Origin: Thermodesulfobium sp. 4217-1
Lineage (GTDB): Bacteria > Thermodesulfobiota > Thermodesulfobiia > Thermodesulfobiales > Thermodesulfobiaceae
Direction: 5' to 3'
DNA: 9,118 nucleotides
Assembly (NCBI RefSeq): GCF_039822205.1
Contig: NZ_JBAGBW010000039.1
Span: 1-9,118, forward strand
Below, piece by piece: positions 147 through 8,827 of the stretch. Position 1 is the first letter of the stretch. Every line of letters begins with the position of its first letter. The notes under the pieces were generated by a model that saw only the letters and a program-made list of their open reading frames with translations, searched no databases and was not told the DNA's origin. The translations under genes and the position numbers were made by a program.

Positions 147-262
147 ATCTTCTCACCCTGGTTTTCGATGTATTCATCGCCATACATAACTATACTGCTG
201 ATTTTATCATGGCTGTACTTTGGAGACAAGAACAAAATAAAGAGCGGCAATTCATCTCTCAC
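143..262 (-). CDS. Tiny reading frame overlapping the tnpB start; possible tnpA remnant
   Basis: A 39-codon frame opens with GTG at 262 and ends in a TGA that overlaps the tnpB start codon as ATGA, a common arrangement for translationally coupled tnpA-tnpB pairs. It begins MRDELPLFILFLSPKY and ends YIENQGEKI. The final YIENQ resembles the C-terminal end of some IS200-type TnpA proteins, but the rest, including the HUH and catalytic tyrosine motifs, is missing. It starts inside the loop of the end hairpin and has no clear ribosome site. It may be an internally deleted tnpA, or chance. I do not assign a function. Confidence 0.25.
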   Translation of the reverse strand: MRDELPLFILFLSPKYSHDKISSIVMYGDEYIENQGEKI

Positions 263-304
263 CTAATTCATTGCGATTCGTTGAGGCGGTGGATGAATTG
301 CCGC
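244..304 (-). repeat. Imperfect hairpin at the IS200/IS605-type end
   Basis: A perfect 13-bp inverted repeat, GCGGCAATTCATC, occupies 244-256 and 292-304. Inside it a further 4-bp stem pairs 260-263 with 288-291, leaving a 3-base bulge (257-259) and a loop at 264-287. Long subterminal hairpins with bulges are the sites recognised by Y1 transposases of this family, which fits the adjacent tnpB. It sits exactly where the lyase homology ends. It is followed by no T-tract on the minus strand, so a terminator is less likely. Confidence 0.7.
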
Positions 305-305
305 A

Positions 306-494
306 CAAGGTTAAATAGCCAACACCAGGCTCACCAAGCAAACTGGCTGAAACCTGATAACCTCCCATAGTAATAGCGTTAAATCCTGCTTTTTCAGCTA
401 TTTTTGCGCTAAAGGCATCGTAGACGCCTGGCAGTTCTAATATGTCTTTTGAATATAGAAGTTTTCTAAATAAGGTCGTTGCTCTTTTTGACAG
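306..494 (-). pseudogene. Isocitrate lyase/PEP mutase family gene, 5' remnant truncated by the IS element
   Basis: Reading from 494 down gives about 60 residues starting SKRATTLFRKLL and containing LPGVYDAFSAKIAEKAGF, then MGGYQVSASLLGEPGVGYLTL. This is the first beta-alpha unit of the isocitrate lyase/PEP mutase barrel (methylisocitrate lyase, dimethylmalate lyase, carboxyphosphonoenolpyruvate mutase and relatives). It aligns with the intact prpB of this window (GVYNPICALLAREAGF, SASLGLPDL). The frame then enters the IS hairpin and reaches TGA near 242. The metal-binding Asp pair and the KKCGH loop are lost, so it cannot be active. A strong AGGAGG (500-505) stands 5 bases before a CTG at 492-494. 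No ATG, GTG or TTG fits, and an in-frame stop lies just upstream, so the start is CTG, or an ATG that has mutated. The original substrate is unknown. Confidence 0.75.
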
Positions 495-536
495 TGTACC
501 CTCCTGAGAATTTTAGAAATACGATTATTATCTAAA

Positions 537-703: not shown

Positions 704-2089
704 ATGATGGGGGAAATTAAAGAAAATGCAAAGGAGAAACATTCTCAATCGAGCATCGCTGCTAGGTTAGAAAGGCTTCCTCTGAGCGGTTTTCATTGGA
801 ATTTTTTGTGGATGATAACTGCTGGAGAGTGGTTTGACACTCTTATTCTTCTAAGTTTAGGGTTACTTGTAGCATTGATCGGTATTAGTTTTGGATATCC
901 ATCTGGTAAGGGACCTATTATATTAATCTCTTATGCTTTTTTTGGAATGCTTTTTGGTGCAATTATTCTCGGCAGGCTTGCTGATATTTTTGGTAGAAGG
1001 ACAATGTACTTTTTTAATTTGTTAATTTTTGGAATTCCTCTAATCGTGGCTGCATTCCTCAACGATCTTAATATCATTTTGATATTGATATTTATTGCAG
1101 GAATGGGTATAGGCGCAGAAGGAGTTTTAATGGACACCTTTATAAGTGAAGTGATGTCCAGGAAGACAAGGGGCAAAAGACTTGCTCTGGCTTATACGGT
1201 AGTCGTCACTTCTGCACCTATTGGTGCTCTGCTTGCAGCAATTACCGAAAAAAATATGCCTCATGATGCCTGGAGAGTATTTCTCCTTTTTGCAGGTATT
1301 GGTGCACTGGTGGTTTGGGTTGCAAGGTTCAAGATGATTGAATCCCCAAGGTGGTTGGTTAGCAAGGGTAAATACAAAGAAGCAGATGAACTAATGACTA
1401 AGATTGAAAACGATATTATGAAAGAAAAGAATCTAAAATCTCTGCCAGAGCCAGAAATTAGAGCAGAAGCCAAACAAGAGGCATCGAAATATCTTGATCT
1501 GTTTAAGCCTGGCATCGTGGGCAAAACAGTTATGATGTTTATTTTTATGTTCTTTCAATCTGCTCTCTTTTATGGATTTACCGCATTAGTTCCATTGTTT
1601 TTGGGCAGCAGAGGGATAAACCTTAATCAGATATTTACTTTTACCTTTGTAGTGTATTCGGGCTTTTTAATTGGAAGCATATTTAATGTTTTTGTAATAG
1701 ATAAGATCGAACGTAAATACGGCTTAATAATATCTATTATTGCTGTAGGTGTATTCGGAGTCTTGTTCGCATTTTCAGGAGATATCTATTTGGCATTGCT
1801 TATGGGCTTTCTTACTACCTTTTCTCTTTGGAATATGTCAAACTTTTATCATCAATATAATGCAGAAATCTTCCCAACTCAAATCAGGGCTAGCGCCACT
1901 GGAACTTCTTATGCATTGAGCAGGCTTAGCTCAGCAATTTTGCCAACCTTTATAGGCACTGTCATTTATAAAGAATATGGTATTGGCGGAGCATTTGGAA
2001 TGCTTTGGTTTTTTATAATAATTCTTGTGTTAGATCTATATTTTCTTGGGCCAAAGAGCACTGGCAGGAAGCTGGAGGAAATTAAGTAA
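704..2089 (+). CDS. MFS transporter, metabolite:H+ symporter type (sugar-porter-like)
   Basis: An inner-membrane transporter of the major facilitator superfamily, about 460 residues with the length and hydrophobic pattern of a 12-helix carrier. The conserved loop between helices 2 and 3 reads GRLADIFGRR (residues 90-99). After helix 6 comes ESPRWL (213-218), the signature of the sugar/metabolite:H+ symporter branch, followed by a charged central cytoplasmic loop to about residue 270. The C-terminal half carries EIFPTQIRA, the matching conserved motif. AAGGAGG (693-699) precedes two adjacent ATGs. The second, at 707, has the better 7-base spacing and may be the true start. It is transcribed alone and converges on the tcu/prp operon, so it could move a substrate or product of that pathway, but this is inference. 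Many relatives carry organic or aromatic acids, so the substrate cannot be named. Confidence 0.85.
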   Translation: MMGEIKENAKEKHSQSSIAARLERLPLSGFHWNFLWMITAGEWFDTLILLSLGLLVALIGISFGYPSGKGPIILISYAFFGMLFGAIILGRLADIFGRRTMYFFNLLIFGIPLIVAAFLNDLNIILILIFIAGMGIGAEGVLMDTFISEVMSRKTRGKRLALAYTVVVTSAPIGALLAAITEKNMPHDAWRVFLLFAGIGALVVWVARFKMIESPRWLVSKGKYKEADELMTKIENDIMKEKNLKSLPEPEIRAEAKQEASKYLDLFKPGIVGKTVMMFIFMFFQSALFYGFTALVPLFLGSRGINLNQIFTFTFVVYSGFLIGSIFNVFVIDKIERKYGLIISIIAVGVFGVLFAFSGDIYLALLMGFLTTFSLWNMSNFYHQYNAEIFPTQIRASATGTSYALSRLSSAILPTFIGTVIYKEYGIGGAFGMLWFFIIILVLDLYFLGPKSTGRKLEEIK

Positions 2090-2109
2090 GCCTTTAAGTG
2101 AAAAAATAT

Positions 2110-2159
2110 ATAAAGCCCTTCAATAGATCAAAGTAAATTTGAGATTTGAAGGGCTTTAT
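2110..2159. terminator. Bidirectional intrinsic terminator between convergent genes
   Basis: A perfect 14-bp inverted repeat, ATAAAGCCCTTCAA at 2110-2123 and its complement at 2146-2159, encloses a 22-base loop. On the plus strand it is followed by a T-rich stretch (GCTTTTATATTTCTTT). On the minus strand it is followed by TATTTTTTC. It lies between the stop of the MFS gene (2089) and the stop of prpB (2164), so it can end both transcripts. Confidence 0.88.
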
Positions 2160-2163
2160 GCTT

Positions 2164-3039
2164 TTATATTTCTTTATTGAGATTTTCGTATTCTTTATAT
2201 TTAATCAGATCATATAATTCTTGTCTTGTTTGCATTTTGGAAATTAGATCTTGTTGAGTGCCATCTCTTAAGATATTTTCAAATCCTTCTAAGACAGCCT
2301 TGTTTGAAAGCCTTAGGGCGGTTACTGGAAAGATTACAAATTTGTACCCAAATTCCTTAAATTTTTGGATGCTGATATAGGGTGTCCTCCCGAATTCTGT
2401 CATATTTGCTAGCAGGGGGGCGCTAATTTCTTTTGAAAATAGTCTAAATTCATCTTCTGTTTCAAGCGCTTCTGGAAATATTACGTCTGCGCCAGCTTTT
2501 AGATACAGCTTAGCTCTTCTTATCGCTTCCTCTATTCCATATACGGCTTTTGCATCAGTTCGGGCAATTATTATAAGATCTTTCGATGATTTTCTTGCTA
2601 CAGATATCTTTTCTATCATCGCTTCTGTATCAACTATCTTTTTGCCAGATAAATGACCGCATTTTTTTGGCAAAACCTGATCTTCTATCTGGATAGCTGC
2701 TCCTCTTGCTTCCTCTATCTCTTTTGCTGTTCTTGAGACGTTTAAGGCTTCTCCAAAGCCTACATCTATGTCTACAATTAAGGGTAGGTTTGACGATCTA
2801 TAGATATATCGAGTCATCATTGACACTTCGCTTAACTCTATCAAACTTAAGTCTGGCAATCCAAGGCTAGCGCTGAGAGCTGCGCCTGACAAATAACAGC
2901 ACTGAAAGCCTGCCTCTCTTGCAAGAAGGGCGCAGATAGGATTGTATACTCCTGCAACGGGTATTATGTCATTCTCTTTCATTAGTCTTTTCAGGGAAAG
3001 AGAGGGATTTTCTTCTTGATTTTCTACCAACCAGGTCAT
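2164..3039 (-). CDS. prpB: 2-methylisocitrate lyase (isocitrate lyase/PEP mutase family)
   Basis: A cytoplasmic lyase of the methylcitrate pathway that splits 2-methylisocitrate into succinate and pyruvate. At 291 residues it has the usual PrpB length (E. coli about 296). Key residues are present: the Mg-binding pair in VDIDVGFG (Asp90, Asp92), the IEDQ strand (118-121) and the active-site loop KKCGH (125-129) with catalytic Cys127. The C-terminal stretch GTQQDLISKMQTRQELYDLI closely resembles E. coli PrpB, which favours methylisocitrate lyase over true isocitrate lyase or PEP mutase. It is the last gene of the operon, with its ATG only two bases after the prpD-family stop. The ribosome site is weak (GAGAG), so translation is probably coupled. 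No prpC accompanies it, so its substrate may arise from the tcuAB oxidation rather than from propionyl-CoA. Unmethylated isocitrate (giving glyoxylate) or dimethylmalate are alternative substrates. Confidence 0.88.
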   Translation of the reverse strand: MTWLVENQEENPSLSLKRLMKENDIIPVAGVYNPICALLAREAGFQCCYLSGAALSASLGLPDLSLIELSEVSMMTRYIYRSSNLPLIVDIDVGFGEALNVSRTAKEIEEARGAAIQIEDQVLPKKCGHLSGKKIVDTEAMIEKISVARKSSKDLIIIARTDAKAVYGIEEAIRRAKLYLKAGADVIFPEALETEDEFRLFSKEISAPLLANMTEFGRTPYISIQKFKEFGYKFVIFPVTALRLSNKAVLEGFENILRDGTQQDLISKMQTRQELYDLIKYKEYENLNKEI

Positions 3040-3041
3040 CT

Positions 3042-4409
3042 TTATACTCTCAGGTTCTTTGTTATATCTGAAATATTTTCACACTTATCCAGGTTCATTA
3101 TGATATCTATAATAGCATCTCTTTCTGAAGTGCTCAGGATCGATTCGGTATTGTCTTTAAATTTCTTAATGACTTCATCATCGGTCATCTTATTTTTTGA
3201 GTGGCCACGGGGATACATTATCTCTTTTGAATATGTTTGGTTGTCCCTTGTATTGAGCGTTATGCGATTGGGAATGCCTTCAGGATATAACTTAGCCAGC
3301 TCTAAATCTTCTTTTATCTTAATCTTCTTAAGAGTATTTTTTATAAAAGGATCGTTTAATTTATTTTTAGAGAAAGAATCCTTTGAGATATCTCCATCTA
3401 AGATACATGCAGCTGTAATGTATTGGAGGCTGTGATCTGCGGTCTCTTTTGTTTTCGGGCTCCATTTTTCTGGGTCTTTTGCGATAATATCGTATGCAGC
3501 TTGAAATGTTTCAATAGTGATATAGTCAATATCATCTGGTGATTTTATATATCTATGAAGTTCTTTAGAGATGTCTACTGCGCTTTGGGCATGGTACTCA
3601 ACAGGGTAAAATTTTATGTATGTATCTAATATTCTTCGGGGAGAGTCTGCGTTAAATAAAGAAATCAAAGCTTTGTCATCAAAGGCATCGCCATCAAGCA
3701 ATTCTCTAAAAAAACCCATTTCGCCTTCAAAGGGTTTATTTGGACCTGTCATACCACAAGATGCTTGAAGTGTCCCAAAGATAGCATTCCTTACGGAATT
3801 GGCAGCCGCTGCTCCCTTCCACATGGATAGCTCTCCCGAACGCGTCTGTCTCATTGATGAGTTTGGAACTATTGTAATAGAGATAGCATTTTCTATTGTT
3901 TCTTTTTTTAGCTTAAGCAGTCTGCCCAAGCCACATACTGTTCCAATTGAAATGTAATTTACATGATCCCATCCATGGTCTCTGAGGCTGGCTGCATCAC
4001 ATAAACTTACAGCTATCTCATAAGCTACAGCTATCGAATCTATAAGTTTTTTACCGCTTAGATTTTTCCATTCGGCTACAGACCATAAACCTGGTATCAT
4101 ATCGCTTGGATGAAGAGGCTCCTTCGAAAGATATGTATCGTTGAAGTCTAAATATCTCACGAGTACACAGTTTGCAAAAGCTGATATTTCAGGAGTAGTC
4201 TTAAAGTTTAGTCCAAAAAGACTTGCGCCATTTTTGTGTTCGAACATATAAGCATAGTTTCTAGCGGCTTTTGGTGTGCTCTCATGAAAAGCCAGGTACA
4301 TTACTCCAAATGAGTCGAGTATTCTTCTTTTTACTTCATGCGCTGTTTCTGGTGAGATATCCTTAACTTTTAACGCATAGTCTGAAAACAAATCAGTATA
4401 TTTGTCCAT
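3042..4409 (-). CDS. prpD: MmgE/PrpD-family protein, probable 2-methylcitrate dehydratase or aconitate-type hydratase
   Basis: A cytoplasmic, cofactor-free hydro-lyase of the MmgE/PrpD family. In the methylcitrate cycle PrpD dehydrates 2-methylcitrate to 2-methylaconitate. At 455 residues it is slightly shorter than E. coli PrpD (483). Family landmarks are RILDSFG (29-35), RYLDFNDTYL (85-94), GWDHVNY (about 146-152), TRSGELSMWKG (189-199), GMTGP (219-223), YPVEYHAQSA (268-277), KETADHSLQY (321-330) and a late YPRGH. I chose ATG at 4409, which has AGGAG seven bases upstream. A GTG five codons earlier is in frame but overlaps that ribosome site. It lies 31 bases after tcuB and two before prpB. 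The family also contains cis-aconitate decarboxylases and iminodisuccinate epimerases, so the reaction here is inferred: with TcuAB upstream the natural substrate would be an aconitate-type acid. High confidence for family, moderate for reaction. Confidence 0.8.
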   Translation of the reverse strand: MDKYTDLFSDYALKVKDISPETAHEVKRRILDSFGVMYLAFHESTPKAARNYAYMFEHKNGASLFGLNFKTTPEISAFANCVLVRYLDFNDTYLSKEPLHPSDMIPGLWSVAEWKNLSGKKLIDSIAVAYEIAVSLCDAASLRDHGWDHVNYISIGTVCGLGRLLKLKKETIENAISITIVPNSSMRQTRSGELSMWKGAAAANSVRNAIFGTLQASCGMTGPNKPFEGEMGFFRELLDGDAFDDKALISLFNADSPRRILDTYIKFYPVEYHAQSAVDISKELHRYIKSPDDIDYITIETFQAAYDIIAKDPEKWSPKTKETADHSLQYITAACILDGDISKDSFSKNKLNDPFIKNTLKKIKIKEDLELAKLYPEGIPNRITLNTRDNQTYSKEIMYPRGHSKNKMTDDEVIKKFKDNTESILSTSERDAIIDIIMNLDKCENISDITKNLRV

Positions 4410-4440
4410 TTCAACGCTCCTCACAATTAATAGTCGAAAC

Positions 4441-5532
4441 TTATTTATTCATTTCAGAAAAATACTTATATATTGACACATACCTGAAGACAGCATGCTG
4501 CAATTTACTAAAGGGGAGCATTATAAAGAAGGTTATGACGATGCTCAGATGAATTATCAATAAAATAGGCATAAATATTGTAGATCTGAAAAGTAAAACT
4601 AAAAAGCCAGTTAGAACGGACAGTAATAATATCATTATAAAATTAATGTCCATCGAGTTTACATTCTCGCTATATGGTATCCTATCCATTTTAGTTCTCA
4701 AATATAGCAGTCCAGTTAATCCTAAAAGCAATAATGCTCCGCCAATAGAGCCAAATATTACTGGCAGGCTGGTAAAAGTATATGGCGGCGAAATGTTTAA
4801 AATATGACTCATAAATGCAGCTATTAAAGTAGATATGAAAGTTATTTTGAATCCAAACAATACAAATTGGTGGTAAATCCTTCTTGAAAAGCTGTATTCT
4901 TCATCTGGATAATTGCAACCAAAGCCTCCTCCACCAAGGAACTCTAATAAGATTACGCTCTTTAATGATCTAATATGGCTGGAGAGTTTAAGGAAATCGC
5001 CTTTTTTTATACCAATATAATCGCAATAGTCAATAAAGTTTTTTATGTAGATGGTTAATGATATGGCGAATGGAATAAGCATTGTGATAATTAAAAAGTT
5101 TTCAGGTAAAATACTGTAAAACGAAGCATTTTGATCAACGATGACTATTAAACTCAATTTCCCAGTATAGATTATTGACGAGATAGTATAAAAAAGAAAT
5201 GAAACTATAAAAGTAGCAATGCTATAAAGATGCGGCTTATCAACGATATCTTTTGAGAATTTTGAATTTCTATAATTTTTATAGGTTTCCAGCCTCAATG
5301 TTCCAAAAACTTTTGGGATGTTTATATCAAAAGTATGGGGTGGAGCGTATTGGCATGCATAGTAGCAACCCCTACAGTCGTGACAAAGATTTGCCAGATA
5401 GATTATGTCATTGTCAGAAAAGGTTCTTCTCAATTCTATTGCTTTGAAAACAGGGCAAATGTTTTCGCAATATCTGCAAGCGTTGCAAATATTTAGTGAA
5501 AATCTTGCATCCTCAAAATTTTTATCGAACAT
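4441..5532 (-). CDS. tcuB: TcuB-like Fe-S/membrane electron-transfer protein
   Basis: The membrane partner that reoxidises the TcuA flavin and passes electrons towards the quinone pool. The N-terminal domain has two [4Fe-4S] ligand sets: Cys16, 19, 22 and 26, and Cys50, 53, 56 and 60, the second followed by the family motif APPH. From about residue 100 a membrane domain of roughly six helices follows, with the conserved GGGGFGCNYPDEE (about 200-212) and RRIYHQF, whose His221 is a candidate haem ligand. I place the start at ATG 5530-5532 (363 residues, MFDKNFED). A GGGAGAGAGG ribosome site stands just upstream, and this start overlaps the tcuA stop by 11 bases, as in coupled pairs. The in-frame GTG at 5574 would add 14 hydrophobic residues and overlap tcuA by 53 bases. 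Salmonella TcuB is similar in length and role. Family assignment is strong. Confidence 0.85.
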   Translation of the reverse strand: MFDKNFEDARFSLNICNACRYCENICPVFKAIELRRTFSDNDIIYLANLCHDCRGCYYACQYAPPHTFDINIPKVFGTLRLETYKNYRNSKFSKDIVDKPHLYSIATFIVSFLFYTISSIIYTGKLSLIVIVDQNASFYSILPENFLIITMLIPFAISLTIYIKNFIDYCDYIGIKKGDFLKLSSHIRSLKSVILLEFLGGGGFGCNYPDEEYSFSRRIYHQFVLFGFKITFISTLIAAFMSHILNISPPYTFTSLPVIFGSIGGALLLLGLTGLLYLRTKMDRIPYSENVNSMDINFIMILLLSVLTGFLVLLFRSTIFMPILLIIHLSIVITFFIMLPFSKLQHAVFRYVSIYKYFSEMNK

Positions 5533-6898
5533 TTGCAGCCTCTCTCCCAGCCGTAATACCAAAAACAGTACCAATAGTCAAACCTGTTCCTGCCATATAT
5601 CCCTTGCTCAATATGTTTCCAGACATAATCTCTCCAGCAGCGAAAACGTTTTCGAAAGGTTCCTCATTGTTTGTCAAAACCTGCGCATTTTTGTTTACTT
5701 TAACTGATAGATAAGTAAAAGTAATGCCAGGTCTTAGCGGATAGGCATAAAATGGTGGCTTATCGATAGGCAGCGCCCAATGGCTCTTGGGGGGTTCTAA
5801 ATCAACAGTTTTACAATTGTCTAAGATAGATGGATCGAATTCTCCTAAAGACAAATGATTGTTGTAATTTTCTATGGTTTTTATTAAATTTTCAGAATCA
5901 AGGTTAACCTTTTCGGAGAGCTCTTTTAGAGAATCGGCTCTGAATGCAGGAAAAGCGGATGGCATAAAAAGATTTACTACCTTAGAATCGAAAATTACAT
6001 GTCCTATCTGATCAGGTTGATTGATTAATATATGCCCCCAGATTGCATATCTCTTGGGCCATATATTTTCTCCTTCATCGTAAAATCTTTCAGCATTCTT
6101 GTTTACAACTATGCCAAAGGGTATGCAGTCTAACCTGGTCACTATGCCACCATCAAATTTTGGTGCTCTTGCATCCAATGCCAACATATGAGCATTTTTT
6201 GGATCTCCAATAGGCATTGCATCGTCTTCTATTAGAATTTGGAATATGTTTCCTTCATCATATGGGGTTCCTCTGATTATTAGATTTTTTGCTGGATCTC
6301 CCCAAATTTCTTTCAACTGTTCAATATTGCTCTGAAAGCCACCACATGCGAGGACTAAGCTTTTTGCGGTTATTTCATGAAGGCTATGTTTGTAGTTGAC
6401 TAAGACTGAATAAAATTTTTTGTTTTTAAACTTTAAATCAACCACAAATGCGTCATAAATAATTTTTACACCAACTTTTTGGCAATAGTGATAGTAGTTA
6501 TTAACCATGGACTTGCCGCCGCCAGAGAAGAATGCCACGCTGTTAGCTAAGTGAAGAGCGCCTTTTATGGTAGGCTGAAATTTGCACCCGTGATTTTGCA
6601 TCCAGAAGATGATGTCTTGGGATTTCTCTACACAAAATTTAGCCAATTCTTTATTCGTCTCGCCCTTTGTTACTTCGAGTATATCATTGTAGTAATTTTC
6701 TGCTGTGTATGAGCCAACTGTGTATGAATTTGGTTTATCGTGAGCATATCTGATATCTCTGGTATGACGGCTATTTCCCCCTCTGTAAAATATTGGGGAT
6801 CTTTCCAGTAGCAATACCCTTGCGCCGTTTTCTGTAGCGCTCATTGCAGCGCAAAGACCTGCGTTTCCGCCTCCAACTACTATAACGTCGTAGTCCAT
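5522..6898 (-). CDS. tcuA: FAD-dependent tricarballylate dehydrogenase-like flavoprotein
   Basis: A flavoprotein of the succinate dehydrogenase/fumarate reductase superfamily. TcuA of Salmonella oxidises tricarballylate to cis-aconitate, with electrons leaving through TcuB. The 458 residues (Salmonella about 467) open with a Rossmann FAD motif GGGNAG (9-14) and an acidic Glu32. The TcuA-type GGNSRHTR (40-47) follows, and the C-terminal flavin segment AAGE...KGYMAGTGLTIG spans about 420-443. There is no signal peptide and no haem motif, so it should act on the cytoplasmic face. The ATG follows the transporter stop by 16 bases, with AGGA five bases upstream, and the gene overlaps tcuB. In other members the same fold runs as a reductase (fumarate, urocanate), so reduction of an aconitate-type acid cannot be excluded. 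A methylated tricarboxylate is also a possible substrate given prpD and prpB downstream. Confidence 0.85.
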   Translation of the reverse strand: MDYDVIVVGGGNAGLCAAMSATENGARVLLLERSPIFYRGGNSRHTRDIRYAHDKPNSYTVGSYTAENYYNDILEVTKGETNKELAKFCVEKSQDIIFWMQNHGCKFQPTIKGALHLANSVAFFSGGGKSMVNNYYHYCQKVGVKIIYDAFVVDLKFKNKKFYSVLVNYKHSLHEITAKSLVLACGGFQSNIEQLKEIWGDPAKNLIIRGTPYDEGNIFQILIEDDAMPIGDPKNAHMLALDARAPKFDGGIVTRLDCIPFGIVVNKNAERFYDEGENIWPKRYAIWGHILINQPDQIGHVIFDSKVVNLFMPSAFPAFRADSLKELSEKVNLDSENLIKTIENYNNHLSLGEFDPSILDNCKTVDLEPPKSHWALPIDKPPFYAYPLRPGITFTYLSVKVNKNAQVLTNNEEPFENVFAAGEIMSGNILSKGYMAGTGLTIGTVFGITAGREAANVR

Positions 6899-6914
6899 AA
6901 TGTCCTAAATTAGA

Positions 6915-8207
6915 TTAATGCAATTCAATATCTTTTGTCTCCTTTGACAGCAAAGCTGAAAGCATAACCAAAATTTCTCCAAATATTATAAACGCACTCC
7001 ACATATTTGGGAAATTAGAAGAGGAAATTTTAGTGAACACTAAGAGTATTGCCGTTCCCCAGTTTCCGAAGATAAACCCGAAGTTAAATGAGATGCCTAC
7101 CGCTGTGCTTCTAACGTGTGTAGAAAATCTTTCAGACAGATAAGTAGGTGTGACTCCATATAGCCCAGCGGAGAAGAAGCCTAATATGCTTGCAAATACA
7201 GCACAATATGTAAAGTTAGTTGTTTTTGAGATGATCTGAGTAGCAAATAATGAAATTATGATTGCTATCAAGGAAAATGTTATGACAGTTTTCCTTCTTC
7301 CGATATAGTCGCTCACAAAACCAGAAGAAAGATATCCAATTACAGCTGCAGTTAGCGCTATTATTACTACATATAGCGTTTGTGGAAAAGCAAAAAGTTT
7401 TCCTAATGCCAAAACGGTAGGGAAAAACCCAAGAGTTAAACCATAAATCCAGGACATTCCGACCATAAAAAGAATTCCTGTAAGAACCTCTTTCAAGGTT
7501 TCGCCATTTTTTAAAATTTCAGTCAAAGGCATTTTCTTAGTTTTGCCCTCTTCTTTCGCCCTTTCCCATTTTGCAGACTCTATCATTCTGTACTTTACAA
7601 CAAGAAGTGCAATGACTGTTAAGACTATCGAAGACCAGAACATCCATCTCCAGCCATAATTTGCAAAGCTCTCTTTTGGAATTGCATAGTGTAAAAATAA
7701 AAATAGTATAGCTGCAACCAAGAAACCTACTGCATATCCTGCCTGTATTGCTCCTCCCCAACGCCCTCTCTTATTTTTTTCTGCAGATTCTACTATGATA
7801 ACTGCGCTATTGCTGTATTCTCCTCCTGCAAATATGCCAGTCAATGCCCTTAAAAATGTTAGTAAAATTGGAGCCCAAACGCCTATACTATGATAGTTTG
7901 GCAAGAATCCTGTAAGAAATACAGAAAGCCCTAATCCAGCTACTGCAGCAAATATTGCTTTTCTTCTGCCAATTTTGTCGCCAAGAATACCGAAAAGTAT
8001 CCCCCCTAAAGGTCTAAAAACCAGTGTAATGGTATAAATGCTCCATACTCCTATAATGGCTATTGCAGAACTCTTTGGAAAAAACTGAGGTGCAAGAATA
8101 GGTATTAACAAGAACATCATACTTAGATCAAAGCCGTCCACCATCCAGCCAATAAATGCGCCCGGATAGACATTCCATGGATTAATCTTTTTTTGATCAG
8201 CTTCCAT
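6915..8207 (-). CDS. MFS organic-acid:H+ symporter, TcuC-like by position
   Basis: An inner-membrane transporter of about 430 residues with a 12-helix pattern. GWMVDGFDLSM (about 20-30) in the first helix, GDKIGRRK (76-83) between helices 2 and 3, and RALTGIFAGGEYSNS (120-134) followed by a Glu and RGRWGG place it among the metabolite/sialate/lactate-type H+ symporters. The tricarballylate carrier TcuC and citrate carriers are related. It is the first gene of the operon, 16 bases ahead of tcuA, which makes uptake of the TcuA substrate its likely job. The symbol tcuC is withheld because orthology cannot be judged by eye. Ribosome sites GGGAGG and AAAGGGG stand 10 and 5 bases before the ATG. 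It is a different MFS branch from the carrier at 704-2089, so the two are not a recent duplication. Confidence 0.82.
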   Translation of the reverse strand: MEADQKKINPWNVYPGAFIGWMVDGFDLSMMFLLIPILAPQFFPKSSAIAIIGVWSIYTITLVFRPLGGILFGILGDKIGRRKAIFAAVAGLGLSVFLTGFLPNYHSIGVWAPILLTFLRALTGIFAGGEYSNSAVIIVESAEKNKRGRWGGAIQAGYAVGFLVAAILFLFLHYAIPKESFANYGWRWMFWSSIVLTVIALLVVKYRMIESAKWERAKEEGKTKKMPLTEILKNGETLKEVLTGILFMVGMSWIYGLTLGFFPTVLALGKLFAFPQTLYVVIIALTAAVIGYLSSGFVSDYIGRRKTVITFSLIAIIISLFATQIISKTTNFTYCAVFASILGFFSAGLYGVTPTYLSERFSTHVRSTAVGISFNFGFIFGNWGTAILLVFTKISSSNFPNMWSAFIIFGEILVMLSALLSKETKDIELH

Positions 8208-8293: not shown

Positions 8294-8311
8294 TATGCTT
8301 AAAAAGTAAGA

Positions 8312-8324
8312 CACGACGATCGTG
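8312..8324. promoter_or_regulatory. GC-rich short palindrome between divergent genes, candidate operator
   Basis: CACGA-CGA-TCGTG is a perfect 5-bp inverted repeat (an alternative centre gives ACGATCGT). It stands out as a GC-rich island in an AT-rich intergenic region. It lies about 20 bases upstream of the candidate -35 of the operon, a typical activator position. No regulator gene is present in the window to link it to. Confidence 0.3.
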
Positions 8325-8358
8325 CTGATAACTTATATAGCTTCTTTAAAGATAAGAG

Positions 8359-8482: not shown

Positions 8483-8827
8483 ATGAAACCTATTTTTTTT
8501 AGATCGGCACAAAGCTACGAGCCTCAAAAAGATTGGAAGCGCACAAGCCTTTGCAATCAAGAATCCATATCAATAGAACATTTTGTAAAGCCTCCACATC
8601 ATTCTTCTCCAGAACACTTTCACCCTAGCGCTCAAATTTTAGTTGTGTTAAAGGGCAAAATGTCTGTAAAAAACCAGGATAGCGAAGTCGTGCTATCGGA
8701 AAACGATTGCGTATATATAGAGCCGAACGAAATGCACACTGTAGTAAACGTATTAGATGAACCCTCAATTGGCCTTGATATTTTTGTGCCTGGCAGGGAT
8801 TTTAGCTTTTGGCTAAATAAGCTATAA
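8483..8827 (+). CDS. Small single-domain cupin protein
   Basis: A 114-residue protein made of one beta-barrel cupin domain, probably cytoplasmic, with no signal peptide. Cupin motif 1 reads HHSSPEHFHPSAQILVVLKG (about 39-58), with metal-ligand candidates His45 and His47. The usual Glu of this motif is Gln51. Motif 2 is EPNEMHTVVN (80-89), with His85. The ligand set HxH...Q...H is common in small cupins that bind Fe, Mn or Zn. AGGAGGT (8471-8477) stands five bases before the ATG, fixing the start. It is divergent from the tcu/prp operon and shares its regulatory region, so co-regulation is possible. Small cupins serve as isomerases, decarboxylases, dioxygenases or ligand sensors. I cannot choose among these, and no DNA-binding domain is present. 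Confidence 0.75.
   Translation: MKPIFFRSAQSYEPQKDWKRTSLCNQESISIEHFVKPPHHSSPEHFHPSAQILVVLKGKMSVKNQDSEVVLSENDCVYIEPNEMHTVVNVLDEPSIGLDIFVPGRDFSFWLNKL

Follow-up and report, generated by a model that had tools for sequence, protein, structure and literature searches.

A contig of Thermodesulfobium sp. 4217-1 (NZ_JBAGBW010000039.1; contig C39 of a 2.0 Mb genome), analyzed in its entirety as a window of 9118 bp to which all coordinates refer, carries five genes in which the tricarballylate-oxidation pair tcuA and tcuB is joined to prpD and prpB of the methylcitrate cycle, behind a gene for a carrier of the major facilitator superfamily (MFS). The five genes are confirmed as a real and conserved operon, and it is possible, and the reading that we tentatively favor, that this operon scavenges tricarboxylic acids through two entry points, with one shared importer and one downstream hub. 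The host is a hot-spring-type sulfate reducer from a phylum known from autotrophic sulfate reducers, and methylcitrate-cycle enzymes are usually taken as a sign of propionate oxidation. Their presence within a tricarballylate operon, when the genomes of the genus have no corresponding synthase, instead predicts the use of external tricarboxylates and points to heterotrophic capacity in this phylum. The arrangement also offers a concrete and cheap test of an enzyme pair whose function in Desulfurella has been called unclear (PMC11861179). Within the genus, the name T. fumaratoxidans was given to a heterotrophic species in 2026, to judge from a title quoted in PMC13220968.

Operon structure and its fate within the genus

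All five genes are co-directional on the minus strand, in the order MFS carrier, tcuA, tcuB, MmgE/PrpD and prpB (2164-8207; Table 1), within a window of 36% G+C. The carrier gene is separated from tcuA by 16 nt, tcuB from prpD by 31 nt and prpD from prpB by 2 nt, while tcuA and tcuB overlap by 11 nt. These lengths take the start of tcuB to be the ATG at 5532 (a TTG at 5574 is also possible) and that of prpD to be the ATG that aligns with the Desulfurella acetivorans start and lies 3' of an AGGAG (a GTG at 4424 is also possible). Behind prpB lies a terminator hairpin of 14 pairs with a U tract (2110-2159; -21.8 kcal/mol, z -4.8; 0/200 shuffles as good), across which a convergent MFS gene ends at 2089. 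The compact operon with a shared terminator described in the original prediction was thus recovered.

Comparison within the genus was made across four species genomes: G000 (this genome), G001 (complete, 1,898,865 bp), G003 (complete, 1,774,794 bp) and the sister genome G002, the public metagenome-assembled genome (MAG) BP4.bin65; the other sampled genomes share only the domain. G002 keeps the order tcuA-tcuB-prpD-prpB on a contig that ends just past tcuA, leaving the carrier out of view. Between G000 and G002 the ratio of nonsynonymous to synonymous substitution (dN/dS) is 0.10 for prpB, 0.08 for prpD, 0.11 for tcuB and 0.10 for tcuA, and prpD and prpB are therefore as constrained as tcuAB. 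Purifying selection on these four genes, together with the order kept in G002, argues that the operon is not a chance assembly.

The pair prpDB is nevertheless separable from tcuAB. MFS-tcuA-tcuB is intact in both G001 and G003, whereas prpD and prpB are not. Behind tcuB, G001 has a deletion remnant in which 70 bp of prpD (90% identity) are fused to the last part of prpB and the terminator (330 bp, 95.8%), and G003 retains only a stretch weakly similar to the beginning of prpB (85 bp, 72%; 0/300 dinucleotide shuffles matched as well). This remnant and scar show the five-gene operon to be older than the losses of prpDB. Among the relatives, the linkage is kept in G002 and has been lost in the other two species. 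The prpB remnant of G001 (L036 11765-12160) is 96% identical to the window and the neighboring MFS gene 83%; the remnant thus resembles the window more closely than do its flanks, which suggests that lineages may have recombined prior to the deletion.

These losses could also mean that prpD-prpB is a hitchhiking pair of marginal function that is leaving the genus. It is lost or decayed in two of the four species, the paralogue prpB2 is disrupted (left end of this contig, end of contig C2), and a further prpB paralogue has become a pseudogene in G003. The dN/dS of 0.08-0.10 for prpDB between G000 and G002, no different from tcuAB, speaks against this explanation, which we regard as very unlikely.

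Outside the genus, the combination was not encountered. A scan of the genome contigs for PrpD matched only the sister MAG, and among 386 sampled genomes searched for TcuA, none beyond the genus had a true one. Among 20 plasmid-borne tcuB loci, for which the stretch was mostly 7-8 kb on each side, none has PrpD, and a convergent prpB occurs in one, that of Paracoccus yeei. A MAG of the Desulfurella phylum (L141 4010-6482) carries tcuA (55% identical to the window) and tcuB, with no prpDB on its short contig; this tcuAB adjoins CRISPR-Cas type III-like genes. A search of a phage collection with TcuA returned mostly distant flavoproteins (~24%), along with a 49% match in two contigs that are labelled as Acinetobacter phage. 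Conserved tcuAB-prpD-prpB clusters lacking prpC were thus found within the genus but not outside it, and the linkage is provisionally regarded as genus-restricted, Pseudomonadota chromosomes not having been broadly surveyed. In agreement with the earlier impression that the combination had not been described, no paper in the literature searched mentions both tricarballylate and methylisocitrate lyase. The novelty is in the combination and the missing synthase; the individual enzymes are of known kinds.

Identity and ancestry of the encoded proteins

Model scores were compared with NCBI equivalog cut-offs. TcuA scores 640 bits against NF006130 (cut-off 369) and 511 bits against TIGR02485 (cut-off 372), and is ~48-52% identical to most plasmid-borne TcuAs. 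TcuB reaches TIGR02484 (271 bits, cut-off 247) but not the other TcuB model, NF011607 (293 vs 524); its sequence contains the cysteine clusters CNACRYCENIC and CHDCRGCYYAC and is ~33% identical to its relatives on plasmids. The carrier belongs to the same broad MFS class as TcuC and scores 112 bits against the TcuC model NF011656 (cut-off 445). The tcuABC locus of Salmonella enterica and related proteobacterial tcuAB loci resemble the Thermodesulfobium operon in that TcuA and TcuB pass equivalog cut-offs (TcuB that of one model) and a carrier gene lies within the same operon. However, the proteobacterial loci lack prpD and prpB, and their carrier has no confident counterpart here.

The PrpD-like protein falls in the MmgE/PrpD family (Pfam E 6e-69) but far short of the cut-off of each of the three PrpD equivalog models. 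AHF97589 of D. acetivorans, which has the dehydratase activity (PMC11861179), is below these cut-offs as well. PrpB passes TIGR02317 (395 bits, cut-off 354) but not a second PrpB model, NF008455 (305 vs 353). It keeps KKCGH, F186, P236, R241 and R270 (E. coli numbering), of which F186 and P236 are methyl-pocket residues; a few of the checked residues differ from E. coli PrpB, by substitutions that other methylisocitrate lyases share. The genus has two further PrpB-like proteins, which are more like petal death protein (R241Y, R270F). In comparison with prpBCDE of E. coli and Salmonella, the PrpB catalytic and methyl-pocket residues are kept at the checked positions, but PrpB is 40% identical, PrpD is only 27% identical and under the family cut-offs, and prpC is absent.

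The closest relatives of PrpD outside the genus are in the genomes G237 (66%), G350 (54%), G221 (53%), G359 (43%) and G294 (43%). The gene order is prpD-prpB-citrate synthase in G237, G350 and G359, while the contig of G294 stops after prpB. G237 is D. acetivorans: in locus L088, all six published primers for AHF97589, AHF97590 and AHF97591 are found without mismatch at the ends of the genes. The window PrpD is 66% identical to AHF97589 and the window PrpB 63% to AHF97590, and in FastTree family trees, the placement called for by the original prediction, each was sister to its D. acetivorans counterpart (support 0.999-1.0). Purified AHF97589 converts 2-methylcitrate to 2-methylaconitate, and AHF97590 acts as a methylisocitrate lyase (5 U/mg) that also catalyzes the reverse reaction from pyruvate and succinate; both are encoded with a citrate/2-methylcitrate synthase, AHF97591 (Pettinato et al., 2025, PMC11861179). 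The two operons are thus alike in having prpD and prpB adjacent in the same order, and differ in that of D. acetivorans has the synthase and no tcuAB, while that of the window has tcuAB in a genome with no PF00285 synthase. We favor the view, drawn from these sequence comparisons, that prpD-prpB is a Desulfurella-type methylcitrate-cycle pair that, leaving its synthase behind, would have joined tcuAB early in the history of the genus.

Two other assignments were rejected. As a cis-aconitate decarboxylase, the PrpD-like protein has 22% identity and the PrpD-like motif YPVEYHAQ instead of FPAHLATH. As an isocitrate lyase, PrpB keeps the methyl-pocket F186 and P236, and malate synthase was not found.

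As for the paralogues, prpB2, the second, petal-death-like one, is intact in G002 (L104 6919-7797) and broken in this genome (window 252-512 and 3-152; L039 6971-7450 and 7875-9266; all minus strand). The N-terminal part stops close to a truncated IS605-type OrfB at the contig's left end; the C-terminal part is found on contig C2, next to another transposase.

Possible routes through the operon

Statements of genome-wide absence come from family searches, with positive controls for PF00285, malate synthase and methylmalonyl-CoA mutase. PF00285 citrate/methylcitrate (Si-type) synthase is absent from all four genus genomes (the control was positive in 13/14 named genomes and in G237), in line with the original prediction of a route without methylcitrate synthase. 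Neither malate synthase nor methylmalonyl-CoA mutase was found in any of the four. With no PF00285 synthase and no mutase, no standard propionate route was found. Tricarboxylic acid (TCA)-cycle genes are present in the genus genomes despite the lack of a Si-type citrate synthase. A prpC/prpE/acnD set lying just beyond the window was considered and rejected: the window being a whole contig, the syntenic complete genomes were used, and no prpC is seen near the locus there, where the neighbors of the locus are an AcsA-type acetate-CoA ligase, a cupin and ATP-binding cassette (ABC) and MFS transporters. If it was joined without a synthase, prpDB should rely on the import of 2-methylcitrate or 2-methylaconitate and not on propionate, and this organism, whose genome lacks the synthase that normally starts the methylcitrate cycle, probably takes up preformed tricarboxylic acids from its environment.

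In the favored two-entry scheme, the carrier, of the metabolite:H+ symporter (MHS) type, would import tricarballylate and related tricarboxylates. TcuA, by family, would oxidize tricarballylate to cis-aconitate, with TcuB handing the electrons to the membrane quinone pool, while PrpD, like its closest homologue, would dehydrate imported 2-methylcitrate to 2-methylaconitate. An aconitase/LeuCD-type hydratase encoded elsewhere, beside isocitrate dehydrogenase, would then hydrate both cis-aconitate and 2-methylaconitate. PrpB would cleave the resulting 2-methylisocitrate to succinate and pyruvate, and in parallel isocitrate would pass to 2-oxoglutarate through isocitrate dehydrogenase. The candidate aconitase, assigned by homology, is the aconitase/homoaconitase/LeuCD-type pair of the C19 cluster, which also encodes a monomeric NADP-isocitrate dehydrogenase, a petal-death-like PrpB homologue, a 2-oxoacid oxidoreductase and a succinyl-CoA ligase (SucCD). 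Two entry points would allow prpDB to be lost with tcuAB retained, as in G001 and G003. The PrpB homologue of this TCA-type cluster (L038 2697-3575; L106 6664-7542; L107 6139-6411) is intact in both G000 and G001, but in G003 it is a pseudogene.

Several points weigh against this scheme. The carrier, by its model score, is not a confident TcuC orthologue, and the transport substrates, the TcuA substrate and the aconitase function are predicted. Use of 2-methylcitrate would also require an environmental supply, which for such an organism is presumed. The pair of NifV/homocitrate-synthase-like proteins, two of four full proteins of the HMGL family, could include a Re-type citrate synthase that might make 2-methylcitrate in the cell. 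In D. acetivorans itself, the authors saw no running of the cycle in vivo, called the function of the cluster unclear, and cautioned against inferring function from the activities of purified enzymes (PMC11861179).

One of the two NifV-like proteins may indeed be a Re-citrate synthase, and this opens the way to a hidden methylcitrate cycle, in which such an enzyme would join propionyl-CoA to oxaloacetate and PrpD, aconitase and PrpB would oxidize or detoxify the product, the tcuAB neighborhood being incidental. Besides the two paralogues, this is favored by the citrate/methylcitrate synthase gene that adjoins the closest prpDB pairs on contigs continuing beyond them, and, in G001 and G003, by an AcsA-type acyl-CoA ligase close to the tcu locus. 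However, the ligase passes the acetate model but neither propionate cut-off, prpDB is located inside the tcu operon, and no PF00285 synthase is present. Re-citrate synthases are not known to accept propionyl-CoA. We consider a hidden cycle unlikely.

A single linear pathway, as originally predicted, is rather unlikely too, if marginally less so. In it, TcuAB would desaturate tricarballylate or its methylated form, PrpD would yield isocitrate or methylisocitrate, and PrpB would release succinate with glyoxylate or pyruvate, in a self-contained route without aconitase. The gene order mirrors this catalytic order, the genes are tightly packed, the genome has no methylcitrate synthase, and tcuA, tcuB, prpD and prpB are under purifying selection. 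Against it, prpDB was dropped and MFS-tcuAB kept in two species, and PrpB carries the methyl-pocket residues of methylisocitrate lyases. We know of no natural source of methyltricarballylate. Moreover, PrpD interconverts 2-methylcitrate and 2-methylaconitate, methylisocitrate being formed by aconitase (Horswill and Escalante-Semerena, 2001, as cited in PMC12290011); PrpB therefore still needs an aconitase, and a linear route would hit citrate or methylcitrate at PrpD. Since the characterized PrpDs, AHF97589 among them, stop at 2-methylaconitate and do not act at methylisocitrate (PMC11861179), and a candidate aconitase, the LeuCD-type pair, is present in the genome, a route without aconitase is regarded as less likely. 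Its branch from tricarballylate to glyoxylate is weakened by the lack of a malate synthase for glyoxylate and by isocitrate lyase activity below detection in D. acetivorans extracts (PMC11861179).

More speculatively, the five genes could form a strict-anaerobe pathway for a C-methylated tricarballylate or for 2-methylaconitate, in which PrpD would hydrate 2-methylaconitate directly to 2-methylisocitrate without aconitase and a single import would lead to succinate and pyruvate. We think this improbable, at about the level of the hitchhiking explanation; if true, it would hint at the role of the unexplained prpDB cluster of Desulfurella.

Flanking features

The operon is flanked by a transporter gene and a small cupin gene (Table 1). 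In G001 the orthologue of the cupin protein adjoins an AcsA-type acyl-CoA ligase. Upstream of the carrier gene there is a short hairpin (8311-8325, minus strand), GCACGATCGTCGTGT, followed by the T-rich CTTACTTTTT, which could be an upstream terminator or attenuator.

Table 1. Features of the window, with their positions, strands and the basis of each assignment
Feature	Position	Strand	Basis
MFS carrier, MHS type; operon gene 1	6915..8207	-	TIGR00883 best model, 226 bits
tcuA, FAD-dependent tricarballylate dehydrogenase family	5522..6898	-	NF006130 and TIGR02485 models
tcuB, membrane Fe-S electron-transfer subunit	4441 to ~5532	-	TIGR02484; cysteine clusters
MmgE/PrpD-family gene, predicted 2-methylcitrate dehydratase, Desulfurella type	3042 to ~4409	-	66% to AHF97589
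prpB, methylisocitrate lyase	2164..3039	-	TIGR02317; 63% to AHF97590; active-site residues kept
Bidirectional intrinsic terminator, common to operon and convergent MFS gene	2100..2159	-	Folding and U-rich tract
Convergent flanking MFS transporter, sugar/aromatic-acid type; outside operon; in 4/4 species	704..2089	+	
Divergent flanking small cupin protein; outside operon	8483..8827	+

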